64,000 nucleotides of DNA, taken from assembly GCA_023657465.1 (NCBI GenBank), contig JAGTJX010000001.1:297090-361089 (forward strand). The letters run 5' to 3'. This stretch comes from Lysobacteraceae bacterium. GTDB taxonomy: Bacteria; Bdellovibrionota; UBA1018; JAGTJX01. Within the stretch, counting starts at the first letter, position 1. Each line of letters opens with the position of its first letter. The notes under the pieces are model-generated. The model was not told the origin of the DNA. It worked only from the letters and a program-made list of their open reading frames with translations, and did not search any database. Below, one piece after another: positions 31,070 to 46,533 of the stretch. The translations under genes were made by a program, and so were the position numbers.

Positions 31070-31202
31070 GAACGGCTAAACGCTTACGGCCTCGAGCGCG
31101 GCGTCTTTTCACTACTTTTTTTCCGCCTTTTGTTTTCATGCGGGCGCGGAAACCGTGGGTGCGAGCTCTTTTTGTACGACTGGGTTGGTAAGTTCTTTTC
31201 AT
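31053..31202 (-). CDS. rpmH: 50S ribosomal protein L34
   Basis: A 49-aa very basic protein reading [20 protein letters not shown], then [20 protein letters not shown] and RLAVRVASK, the standard L34 sequence with a slightly longer tail. The ATG is at 31202 and the stop at 31053. It is the first gene of the minus-strand rpmH-rnpA-yidD-yidC-mnmE run and diverges from dnaA across 78 bp. No Shine-Dalgarno is visible before the ATG. Confidence 0.97.
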
Positions 31203-31214
31203 AAAGTGGAATTG

Positions 31215-31243
31215 GAATTACTTCACACACAAGTCATTGTCAA
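31215..31243 (-). promoter_or_regulatory. Candidate rpmH promoter
   Basis: On the minus strand TTGACA (31243-31238), a 17-bp spacer and TAATTC (31220-31215) form a good sigma70 promoter. Transcription would begin about 6 nt before the rpmH ATG, giving an almost leaderless mRNA, consistent with the missing ribosome site. Confidence 0.5.
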
Positions 31244-31280
31244 GAAATTCAGCCCATGCTACCGACTGAAGTTCTGCTTT

Positions 31281-32687
31281 ATGAGAACATTTAATTCTGA
31301 AGAAAATAAAGATTGGCCAATTGTCTGGCGATCGGCTTACGAACTGTTGGAAAAGTCTTATGGCTCTTCTGGACTTCTCAAGGCATGGGTTCAACCTCTT
31401 GTTTGGAATGAAATGACTACAGAGGGCGGCGAAATTCATGTTTCTTTTTTTGCAACTACCCCCACTCAATATGACTATGTGATCAGAAACTTCAAAGATC
31501 GAATCGAGTCTGCTCTTGAACAAATAACAGGAAGTAAATGTAAAATTTCTCTTGTTCAAAATTCAGAAATCAACACAAACACTGCTCCTTTTGAACCAAA
31601 AACTGCTGAGGTTCTCCTTTCGAAGGATGCTCATTCTGAACCTAAAATTACATCTTTTTCTACTCAGAGTCGTGTTCTAGATGACCGTTACACTTTTGAT
31701 ACTTTTGTCGTTGGTTCAAGCAACCAATTTGCTCATGCCTCGGCTGTTGCAGTAGCAGAAAAACCTGGGGCTCAGTACAACCCCCTTTTTATTTATTCTT
31801 CTCCTGGACTGGGCAAAACCCACTTACTTCATGCAATCGGAAACTACGTTCTTAGTCAAAAAAAGAACGCAAAAGTTCAGTATGTCTCCGCCGAACAGTT
31901 TGGAAATGAATTGATTGTGGGGATTAAAGATAAAGGAGATATGGCCGCATTCAGAAGAAAGTGGCGTGACTCTTTTGATGTTTTACTCATTGATGATATT
32001 CAGTTTATTGCTGGAAAAGAAGCAATCCAAGAAGAGTTTTTCCACACTTTTAACGCCCTTTATTCCTCTCGTAGGCAAATTGTTGTAACGAGTGACCGTC
32101 CACCTAAAGACATTCGTGAAATGGAAGAGCGTATCCGCACTCGCTTTGAGATGGGCTTAGTTTCTGACATTCAGCCGCCTGAAATCGAAACACGTATTGC
32201 AATTTTAAAAGCTAAAGCAGAGCGAGATGATCTTTATTTGCCAGATGAAGTTGCAACACTCATCGCAACCCATGTAAAAGGCAACGTTCGCGTACTTGAG
32301 GGGTTCCTTGTAAAACTTCAAGCAGATGCTGCACTTACGGGGACTGAGATCTCTTTGGAAATGGCAAAAAATCTACTCCAAATTCGTCTTCCTGAGGAAA
32401 CGCCAGAATCTAGTGTTGAACAAATTCAGGCAGCTGTAGCTAAATATTTTCATATTCGTGTTCAAGATTTAAAATCTAAAGAGAGAACACAAAATATTGC
32501 TTCTGCACGACACATTGCAATGTATTTAATTAGAAAATACACACCTCTGACTTATCAAGAAGTTGCGAAGTTTTTTGGCGGAAGAGATCACTCAACAGTC
32601 ATTCATGCAGTAAAAAGAATCGCAGACTCTGTTGAAACAGACCCTGAGCTCAACCGAATTGTTACAGCAATTCAATCCTCTATCTAA
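31281..32687 (+). CDS. dnaA: Chromosomal replication initiator protein DnaA
   Basis: A 468-aa AAA+ initiator. The start is set at ATG 31281 (MRTFNSEENKDWPIVWRSAY); the frame extends to 31155, but that part overlaps rpmH and is not DnaA-like. Domain I is about 1-85 and domain II is short. Walker A SSPGLGKTHLLHAIGNYV is at about 173-181, Walker B VLLIDDIQFIAGKEAIQEEF at about 236, and sensor motifs follow. The domain IV signature is ASARHIAMYLIRKYTPLTYQ with GGRDHSTVIHAVKRI. oriC lies immediately downstream. Confidence 0.97.
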   Translation: MRTFNSEENKDWPIVWRSAYELLEKSYGSSGLLKAWVQPLVWNEMTTEGGEIHVSFFATTPTQYDYVIRNFKDRIESALEQITGSKCKISLVQNSEINTNTAPFEPKTAEVLLSKDAHSEPKITSFSTQSRVLDDRYTFDTFVVGSSNQFAHASAVAVAEKPGAQYNPLFIYSSPGLGKTHLLHAIGNYVLSQKKNAKVQYVSAEQFGNELIVGIKDKGDMAAFRRKWRDSFDVLLIDDIQFIAGKEAIQEEFFHTFNALYSSRRQIVVTSDRPPKDIREMEERIRTRFEMGLVSDIQPPEIETRIAILKAKAERDDLYLPDEVATLIATHVKGNVRVLEGFLVKLQADAALTGTEISLEMAKNLLQIRLPEETPESSVEQIQAAVAKYFHIRVQDLKSKERTQNIASARHIAMYLIRKYTPLTYQEVAKFFGGRDHSTVIHAVKRIADSVETDPELNRIVTAIQSSI

Positions 32688-32992
32688 GATTTCTTAAAGT
32701 AGAAAATTTTGTGAATTGTTTTGTGGCTTAATACAGTTTTAATCATTGTACTTCACAAGCTCATCATACGCTATTCACAGTATTATTAACAAAAATGAGA
32801 GTTATTCACTGTTAACTCAGTGGGTTAATATTATTTTAATCTTCTTATTCACAAATTCATGGTGAAAATCTATGTGGTAAGTTGTGGTGTCTTGCGTTAA
32901 AAGAGTTACTCACTATTTTTTATTTTTATTCACCACTGGTTATTCAGGGTGAGGAAATTGAATTTGTCTTTTGTAATCAGTGTCCTATCACG

Positions 32993-33009
32993 TTATCCAC
33001 TGTTCCACA
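32993..33009 (+). promoter_or_regulatory. Paired DnaA boxes next to the unwinding element
   Basis: TTATCCACT and TGTTCCACA share one base and lie 4 bp before the trio tract. In Bacillus-type origins a pair of boxes at this position anchors the DnaA filament that engages the trios. Confidence 0.75.
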
Positions 33010-33013
33010 TTAC

Positions 33014-33042
33014 CTACTACTACTACTACTTTTATATATATA
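33014..33042 (+). promoter_or_regulatory. DnaA-trio tract and AT-rich DNA unwinding element
   Basis: Five perfect CTA repeats (33014-33028) give five 5'-TAG-3' trios on the minus strand, the DnaA-trio motif that DnaA binds as single strand. They are followed by CTTTTATATATATAA, the likely melting site. The order boxes-trio-AT tract is the basal unwinding system order. Confidence 0.85.
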
Positions 33043-33106
33043 ACTCTTCTTTTCTCTCTCTTATAAGTTTGATAGTGAATAACTCTCTAGGGGAGGGATC
33101 AACCAA

Positions 33107-34213: not shown

Positions 34214-38833
<4,620 letters not shown>

Positions 38834-43913: not shown

Positions 43914-43948
43914 ACCCACTTTGGAAATTCTAGAGTGGGTCTTTTTTT
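43914..43948 (+). terminator. Intrinsic terminator of the gyrA-atpE side
   Basis: ACCCACT (43914-43920) and AGTGGGT (43934-43940) form a 7-bp GC-rich stem with a 13-nt loop, followed by CTTTTTTT (43941-43948). It ends the plus-strand run and lies between the convergent atpE and uvrA; on the minus strand the stem is followed by TCTCTT only, a weaker stop. Confidence 0.85.
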
Positions 43949-43971
43949 ATCAAAAATTTTAAAAATAAAAT

Positions 43972-46533
43972 CTATAGGACTTTTGCCAAGAATTCGGCAG
44001 TACTACTTTTTTTTGATTTTGAAACTTGTTCGGGAGTTCCAGCCGCGATGATTTCACCACCCGCGGCGCCGCCATCGGGCCCCATGTCGATTACCCAGTC
44101 AGCGTTCTTAATGATGTCGAGATTATGTTCAATAACTATGACGGTGTTCCCTTGATCTCTAAGTTTAAGAAGAATTTCAATTAATTTGGAAACATCTTCA
44201 AAATGCAGTCCCGTTGAAGGCTCATCTAATATGTATAAAGTTTTTCCCGTACTTATTTTGGAGAGCTCTTTTGAGAGCTTAATTCTTTGTGCTTCCCCAC
44301 CAGAAAGTGTGGTCGCGCTCTGACCCAGGTTGATGTAGTCAAGTCCCACATCACAGAGAACTTTAAGTCGAGATTTTAAAAAATACACCGCATCAAAAAA
44401 CTCAAGCGCCTCTCTTACTGACATCGCAAGAACATCAGCAATCGATTTTCCTTTATATCTAATATCAAGAGTTTCTCTATTGTAACGAGACCCTTTACAA
44501 GTATCGCACGTTACAAAAACGTCGGGAAGGAAGTGCATTGCAACTCGTTTTAATCCTCCTCCCTCACAACTTTCACATCTTCCACCCTTAACATTAAAAG
44601 AAAATCTTCCAGGTTTATATCCCCTGATTTTTGATTCAGGAAGAGAAGCAAAGAGGTCTCTAATGAATTTAAATAATCCAGTATATGTAGATGGATTGGA
44701 TCTAGGTGTTCGGCCAATCGGAGATTGATCTACATCAATAATTTTATCAAAGTGCTCAATGCCAGAGATTTTATCTATTTTAATGTTAGCAGTTTCTGAT
44801 CCATAAATTTCTTTGGCGATAAGTGGATAAAGAGTGTCGATGATGAGAGTGCTCTTGCCGCTGCCAGAAATTCCAGTAACGCATGTGAAAAGTCCAACCG
44901 GGATATTGGTTGACACGTTTTTTAAATTATTATCATTAGCCCCAACGATTTTGATGAGCTTCGTTGGATCAGTGAGTTTTCTGTTTTTGGGTACTGGGAT
45001 TGATTTTTTACCCGAAAGGAATAATCCTGTAACGCTTTTAGAATCTTTCTTAATATCTGCGAATGTTCCTTGAGAAACTATTTCTCCACCGAGCCTTCCT
45101 GCTCCAGGACCGATATCTAAGATCCAATCAGAGTGCTCCATCGTATCGTGATCGTGTTCAACCACGAGAACAGAGTTACCCGCATCTCTTAGTCGTTTTA
45201 GAATTTTAATGAGTTTATGGTTGTCTCTTGAGTGAAGGCCAATACTAGGCTCATCAAGCACATACGTAACTCCTACAAGTTGACTTCCAATTTGTGAAGC
45301 AAGTCGGATTCTTTGGGCTTCTCCTCCTGAAAGACTTTTGGCTGAACGGGAGAGACTTAAGTAACCCACTCCAACATCGCTTAAGAAACTACAACGACTA
45401 GAGATTTCTTTAATGATACGCGAGGCAACCATTTTTTCTCTTCCAGTAAGTGGGCAATGATCAAAGTATTTTTCAAGTTCATTAATCGGAAGACTGACTA
45501 GAGAATTAATGTTTGATCCACCGACAAAAAAATGAAGTGATTCTTTTCGCAATCTAGCTCCATTACAGTCATGGCAAATCTCGACGATATTAAAGAGAGG
45601 CTTCTCTTCGCCGTGCGATTCATCAACATCTTCAGTCTCCTCGTGTTCGTTTAGTGTGCCAAGCCCATTGCAGCTCGGGCACGCTCCCATGGGACTATTA
45701 AACGAAAATGTTCTTGGTTCCGGTTCAGGATAGCTGATCCCACAATCTGTACAGGCAAATTTTTCTGAATAGAGTACTTCGGTAGGCTTAGTAGAGGTTC
45801 CTATGACAGACTCTAAAATAAGCGAGCCTCCACCCATTCTCAAAGCTAGTTCTACAGACTCACTCAGTCTTGATAATATTTGAGAGCGGTCATCTTTAAG
45901 AATGAAGCGATCAACAAACACGTCGATCGTATGTTTTTTAGATTTATCTATGGTGATATCGTCAGATAGATCGTGAGTCACTCCATCTACCCTTACACGA
46001 ACAAAACCCTTCATTCTAAGATCGTGAAGTTCTTTTAGGTGCTCGCCTTTTCTCTCTTTTATAATAGGAGAAAGTATTGCGATTTTTGTTTGATTATCTA
46101 ATGAGAGGATTTGATCGACGATTTGTTGTGGAGTTTGAGACTGAATGGGTTTCTTACAGTTATAACAAACAGGTTTACCAATTCTTGAATAGAGTAGTCT
46201 TAAAAAGTCATAGACTTCAGTAACAGTTCCAACGGTAGACCTTGGATTATAATTAATAGTTTTCTGGTCGATAGAAATAGTCGGGCTAAGTCCAGTAATG
46301 GAATCACAGTCGGGCTTCTCCATTTGATCAATAAACTGCCTAGCGTAAACAGAAAGACTTTCGATGTATCGTCTTTGTCCTTCTGCATAGATAGTGTCAA
46401 AGGCAAGCGAGGACTTTCCTGAACCAGATGGGCCAGTGAGTACTACAAGTTTTTCTCTAGGGATAGAGACTGTGATGTTTTTTAGATTATGAATCCGCGC
46501 GCCGCGAATAGAAATCTGGTCATCGCTGTACAT
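43972..46533 (-). CDS. uvrA: UvrABC system protein A, lacking most of the insertion domain
   Basis: An 853-aa excision-repair damage sensor from ATG 46533 ([20 protein letters not shown]); usual length is about 940. Both ATPase cassettes are intact: [15 protein letters not shown] with [15 protein letters not shown], and [15 protein letters not shown] with [16 protein letters not shown]. The UvrB-binding domain and both zinc modules ([10 protein letters not shown]...CPSC and CESCEGG...CDTC) are present. Between CPSCNGLG and CHDCNGARL only 27 mostly acidic residues remain, where E. coli UvrA has about 120. It overlaps pgm by 14 bp. Confidence 0.95.

Follow-up and report, generated by a model that had tools for sequence, protein, structure and literature searches.

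Does the DNA between dnaA and dnaN in this genome carry the site at which the chromosome would be opened for replication, and does that site depart from those of its relatives? In a first-pass annotation of the stretch of 64,000 nucleotides analysed here (the window), a basal unwinding system (BUS) in oriC had been assigned to positions 32988-33042, with a trio array described as unusually regular and two DnaA boxes described as more tightly spaced than usual. The layout that it gave (boxes, five CTA, AT tract) was present, and its span was right to within one base at the end. The features of the locus are the following.

31278-32687, plus strand: dnaA, the initiator (TIGR00362, 492 bits, cut-off 343.9)
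32688-33106: oriC, the dnaA-dnaN intergenic region of 419 bp, with the GC-skew switch
32771-32779, plus strand: DnaA-box-like CTATTCACA, 2 mismatches
32802-32810, plus strand: DnaA-box-like TTATTCACT, 2 mismatches
32845-32853, plus strand: DnaA-box-like TTATTCACA, 1 mismatch
32926-32934, plus strand: DnaA-box-like TTATTCACC, 2 mismatches
32993-33001, plus strand: distal DnaA box of the BUS, TTATCCACT, counterpart of B. subtilis box 6
33001-33009, plus strand: proximal DnaA box of the BUS, TGTTCCACA, counterpart of box 7; base 33001 is common to both boxes
33010-33013: spacer TTAC
33014-33028, minus strand: five DnaA-trios, CTA on the plus strand and 3′-GAT-5′ on the minus strand, the one that DnaA would capture
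33031-33043: AT tract, TTTATATATATAA
33107-34213, plus strand: dnaN, the sliding clamp (TIGR00663, 299.8 bits, cut-off 137.65)

The gene order at the site was dnaA-dnaN-recF (recF identified by TIGR00611), the dnaA start codon at 31278 being our choice inside an ORF of 31155-32687. The GC-skew plot called for in the first-pass annotation revealed the switch here, with the minimum of cumulative skew over the whole window at 33-34 kb. All skew samples came from one 909-kb contig, of four contigs; left of oriC, skew was negative in 12 of 12 samples (all eight fetched 12-kb stretches and all four window pieces) and right of it positive in 15 of 16 (four of four window pieces and 11 of 12 fetched stretches), one of the positive fetched stretches reaching only +0.004. 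The sole sampled stretch with negative skew right of oriC was L321 (G000:C4:396000-408000), which an inversion or an island would explain. The position between dnaA and dnaN and the skew switch place the site inside the chromosome origin. Within the positive arm of the window, skew was also negative over about 2 kb (44001-46000), adjoining the least stable DNA of the window (43942-43977). An ORF at 37826-38833, lying between gyrB-like and gyrA-like ORFs, resembled by eye a beta-ketoacyl-ACP synthase III (fabH-like).

Beside the trios, the two boxes TTATCCACT and TGTTCCACA form a tandem, co-oriented pair, both on the plus strand; the distal box differs from the consensus at its last base and the proximal box at two bases. 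The spacer measures 4 nt from the proximal and 12 from the distal box, within the 0-16 bp allowed for a BUS, and the five 3′-GAT-5′ trios exceed the minimum of at least three 3′-NAN-5′. The spacer TTAC is not GC-rich (G/C at one of four positions); by eye, most relatives in family f2 had spacers such as GGCC, CGCC or GCCC, in contrast to TTAC. Nine 9-mers of the intergenic region came within two mismatches of TTATCCACA, where 1.4 would be predicted from the remainder of the window; over the whole window, boxes with at most one mismatch were at chance level (17 observed, 14.1 expected). An exact (CTA)5 occurred once in the 2.83-Mb genome, and with one mismatch allowed it was found at 17 places, one of which overlaps the array of the window itself and 14 of which lie at C1:14265-14333. 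By nearest-neighbour energies, the 30-mer starting at 33014 ranked eighth from the bottom in stability among the 63,970 of the window.

The DnaA of the window was identical to that of B. subtilis at eight of the nine residues named for trio and fork contacts in PMC10721633 (Glu183, Asn187, Ile190, Ile193, Arg202, Lys222, Glu223 and Glu228, B. subtilis numbering), the DnaA thus having the residues looked for in a BUS. At the ninth, Asn196 of B. subtilis, it has Lys. The best solved match to this protein was PDB 8btg, the B. subtilis BUS complex. In that complex (PDB 8BTG; PMC10721633), DnaA occupies boxes 6 and 7 with a filament along the trio strand, neighbouring protomers hold the first two bases of each trio, and the central adenine contacts Asn187. 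By homology, binding, filament formation, melting and helicase loading would take a similar course here. Two DnaA protomers would bind the tandem boxes at 32993-33009 via domain IV, and their AAA+ domains would load a right-handed DnaA filament along 33014-33028 of the minus strand. From each 3′-GAT-5′ trio, two bases would enter a pocket between neighbouring protomers; such base capture is predicted to melt the trios and the AT tract, where the helicase would be loaded.

The layout was then compared among relatives. In the class, 58 genomes were searched, with DnaA matched in 51 and DnaN in 50. Four genomes in which dnaN begins at the end of a contig or close to it (G010, G013, G023 and G041) were not read, and the remaining 46 yielded 47 regions, as G017 has two dnaN genes. 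Of these, 45 had a trio array upstream of dnaN, in almost every case preceded by a box pair that could be recognised; the regions left out were that of G050 (82 bp before dnaN) and that of the second dnaN of G017, and the arrays of G032, G006, G055 and G056 were placed by hand. This second dnaN (L196, G017:C41) is 42% identical to that of the window, has no visible unwinding site upstream and perhaps belongs to a foreign contig in the draft genome. An array also preceded dnaN where dnaA lies kilobases away (G043, G017, G015, G030, G012, G022, G024 and G009), and none was found in these loci in the 700 bp after dnaA, indicating that in these genomes the unwinding site stays with dnaN. In G043:C68, G017:C38, G015:C60, G030:C52, G012:C49, G022:C21 and G024:C3, the two genes are divergent and about 10-18 kb apart, with the site upstream of dnaN. 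Outside the class, 278 genomes matched and 60 regions were taken, 57 at about one per genus from among the matches listed and three from a gapped-pattern search; two of the regions are short, and the largest family, f9, is represented by two regions only.

The one-base overlap of the boxes, which had been taken as tighter than usual spacing, proved to be the commonest register. Measured by mismatches alone, 24 of the 45 class arrays had an 8-bp register with a 4-nt spacer and 15 a 9-bp register with a 3-nt spacer, frequencies that rule out the overlap as a special feature. Among named loci of other groups (80 taken, nine without a dnaN match, hence 71), a tandem pair with trios was found in 24 under the search rule applied, of which 17 had the 8-bp register and 4 nt. 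A gapped pattern requiring TTATCCAC matched 19 of 368 phylum genomes, 18 with the 8-bp register and one (G001) with abutting boxes. From the start of box 1 to the first trio, the distance was 21 bp in 40 of the 45 class arrays, in the 8-bp and the 9-bp register alike. Of the six arrays in neither register, G039 has six CTA and its distance was taken from a later start; in G003 another 9-mer outscored the second box, the total being also 21; in G006 and G055 the distance was 20 bp; and the boxes of G035 and G032 are poor. PMC8287927 allows up to 3 bp between boxes and reports a spacer from the better box that peaks around 10-13 bp, compared with 12 here. These data suggest that the spacing between box 1 and the trios varies less than does the register of box 2. 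Neither a fixed 21 bp nor a one-base overlap was described in the passages of the BUS literature consulted.

Might the CTA run be a chance trinucleotide microsatellite, with the adjacent boxes only regulating dnaA/dnaN and the opening taking place elsewhere? CTA repeats are able to grow by slippage, and DnaA boxes near dnaA serve autoregulation too in other bacteria. This explanation is nevertheless very improbable in view of the fixed 21 bp from the first box, a distance shared by 40 of 45 arrays that come from six families of a single order, and of the GC-skew switch at the site. In addition, 10,000 dinucleotide shuffles of the 419-bp region, read on both strands, yielded no (CTA)5, against two cases of (CTA)4 and 67 of (CTA)3; a tandem box pair in the same register arose three times in 10,000 such shuffles. 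It would be somewhat less surprising, but still unlikely, if only the proximal box TGTTCCACA were real and TTATCCACT were bound weakly or not at all, in which case the overlap would be uninformative on protomer spacing. The Bdellovibrio consensus NN(A/T)TCCACA (PMC5124646) is fitted fully by the proximal box and by the distal box except for its last base, and one-box BUSs are also predicted in PMC8287927. Against this, the distal box is present in most relatives, where it is often nearer the consensus than the proximal one, and strand separation in B. subtilis in vitro requires the upstream box (PMC8287927).

The site is thus almost certainly the unwinding end of the chromosomal oriC and a standard BUS with two boxes. 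What was observed directly is the sequence, where it lies relative to the skew switch, that it is conserved and which DnaA residues are kept, and the assignment made in the first-pass annotation agrees with the gene context, the skew switch, the layout in relatives and the base-capture residues of DnaA. The regularity of its array held up only in part. All five trios were CTA in 16 of the 45 class arrays; under a stricter rule, at least five CTA in a row were counted in 16 of 35 class arrays, in 19 of 46 from the phylum sample and in two of 40 from the named loci. The array is therefore unusual against named loci of other groups and not within its class or the phylum sample, and the unwinding site of the window is ordinary for its relatives.

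The variation lay in the relatives, at the central base of the trio. Read in the phase anchored on the boxes, the 45 class arrays comprised 225 trios, whose top-strand centres were 184 T, 39 G, two C and no A. On the captured strand, 39 of the 41 centres other than A were therefore C, in relatives of the same order; both cases of C on top were in G032, where the array possibly stops at its third trio. C-centred trios were present in 18 of the 45 arrays, ranging from single cases (G015, G037, G047 and others) up to five of five (G008), and the window itself retains the common CTA form. TGA or CGA in phase with CTA could be observed at L193 (G008), L183 (G004), L178 (G035), L179 (G028), L186 (G014) and L187 (G025). 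A different phase for the 18 deviant arrays was considered and rejected, the anchored phase fitting best: it gave 51 A and 39 C as captured centres, compared with 62 G, 23 A, 4 T and 1 C one base towards the boxes and 86 T and 4 C one base away from them. G008 alone is ambiguous, as reading one base towards the boxes places A at four of its five centres; when it was left out, the class centres were 184 T, 34 G and 2 C on top.

Changes were counted by parsimony on a DnaA tree of the genomes of 43 of the 45 arrays (DnaA proteins of G044 and G053 were not in the set). The centre showed 12 changes from T to G, three from G to T, two from T to C and none from T to A; positions 1 and 3 combined showed 24 transitions and seven transversions. 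Fisher's p for centre versus positions 1 and 3 was 1.4e-5, a value to be taken as a guide, as the tree is an approximation and changes within one lineage depend on each other; it was 1.6e-4 once the three centre changes exclusive to G008 were removed, with the other positions unaltered. Asn187 was conserved in 48 of 48 class DnaA proteins. Within the order, every DnaA that was read had the same Asn187, Arg202, Glu183 and Glu228; the three class genomes that belong to other families carry His or Lys in place of Arg202. Among the residues compared in the DnaA proteins of the order, no change was found that would explain C-centred trios. Outside the class, Asn187 is Thr or Ser in three of 29 readable DnaA proteins (G258, G331 and G268), and the arrays of these three genomes have no C at a trio centre.

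In B. subtilis, opening in vitro was about equally fast with C and with A at the centre of trio 1, C at this site was better than G or T in cells, and T at the captured-strand centre performed poorly (PMC10721633); the authors of that study consider that DnaA homologues possibly read a range of sequences. We regard it as evenly balanced whether, in this order, the captured strand has naturally and repeatedly exchanged A for C at the trio centre with Asn187 retained. Such a switch would be evidence from nature that DnaA recognises the central base by its amino group, as mutants of B. subtilis suggested, and that recognition is looser than the 3′-NAN-5′ rule by which origins are searched for. 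The deviant arrays are most constant at the third trio base (T on the captured strand, opposite A on the top strand), so a role of this base, or of a three-base spacing and nothing else, is possible as an alternative account of these arrays. Under the stricter rule, the interior trios with a top centre other than T had G in eight of eight cases in the class, four G, five A and one C in the phylum sample, and five G and two A in the named loci. The preference for C was weaker outside the class, and a requirement for the amino group as an absolute rule is ruled out by the A-on-top centres outside the class (five in the phylum sample and two in the named loci). Interior trios CAA, CAG or TAA, with T at the captured centre, were seen at L219 (G261), L226 (G260), L222 (G271), L247 (G256), L016 and L065; of the four phylum genomes among them, three keep Asn187, and the DnaA of G256 is cut by a contig end. 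The altered trios of the relatives may show how the initiator reads DNA. If the switch from A to C is real, these genomes offer natural DnaA/origin pairs for testing the base-capture model of PMC10721633, and the drift of their trio code has followed a single chemical direction. This drift in the order is more worth following up than the site of the window, and no report of natural C-centred trios was found in listings of the open-licence literature on DnaA-trios.

Compared with known systems, the site of the window adds another lineage to the BUS, which is predicted in 1755 of 2070 species (PMC8287927). It conforms to the rule of that study (a box, a spacer of up to 16 bp and at least three trios), in which 3′-GAT-5′ is the most frequent trio. 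The search used there requires A at the trio centre (NAN), whereas some relatives of the window have C, so that fewer trios would be found or the phase shifted; this suggests that origin finders with such a requirement can miss or misplace C-centred trios. With the BUS of B. subtilis (PMC6669920, PMC10721633), the site shares tandem co-oriented boxes, a short spacer, 3′-GAT-5′ trios, AT-rich DNA after them and conserved capture residues. It differs in having five exact trios, compared with six in B. subtilis, one of which has 3′-AA-5′, as well as in Lys for Asn196 of DnaA and in a spacer that is not GC-rich; GC-richness belongs to an earlier name for the gap between box and trios and does not enter the 2021 search rule (PMC8287927). 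With the oriC of Bdellovibrio bacteriovorus (PMC5124646), it shares the location between dnaA and dnaN-recF, the DnaA boxes and the GAT trios. In that species, however, four trios lie near DnaA box 1 and unwinding occurs at the 5′ end of oriC, while in the window there are five, at the dnaN end.
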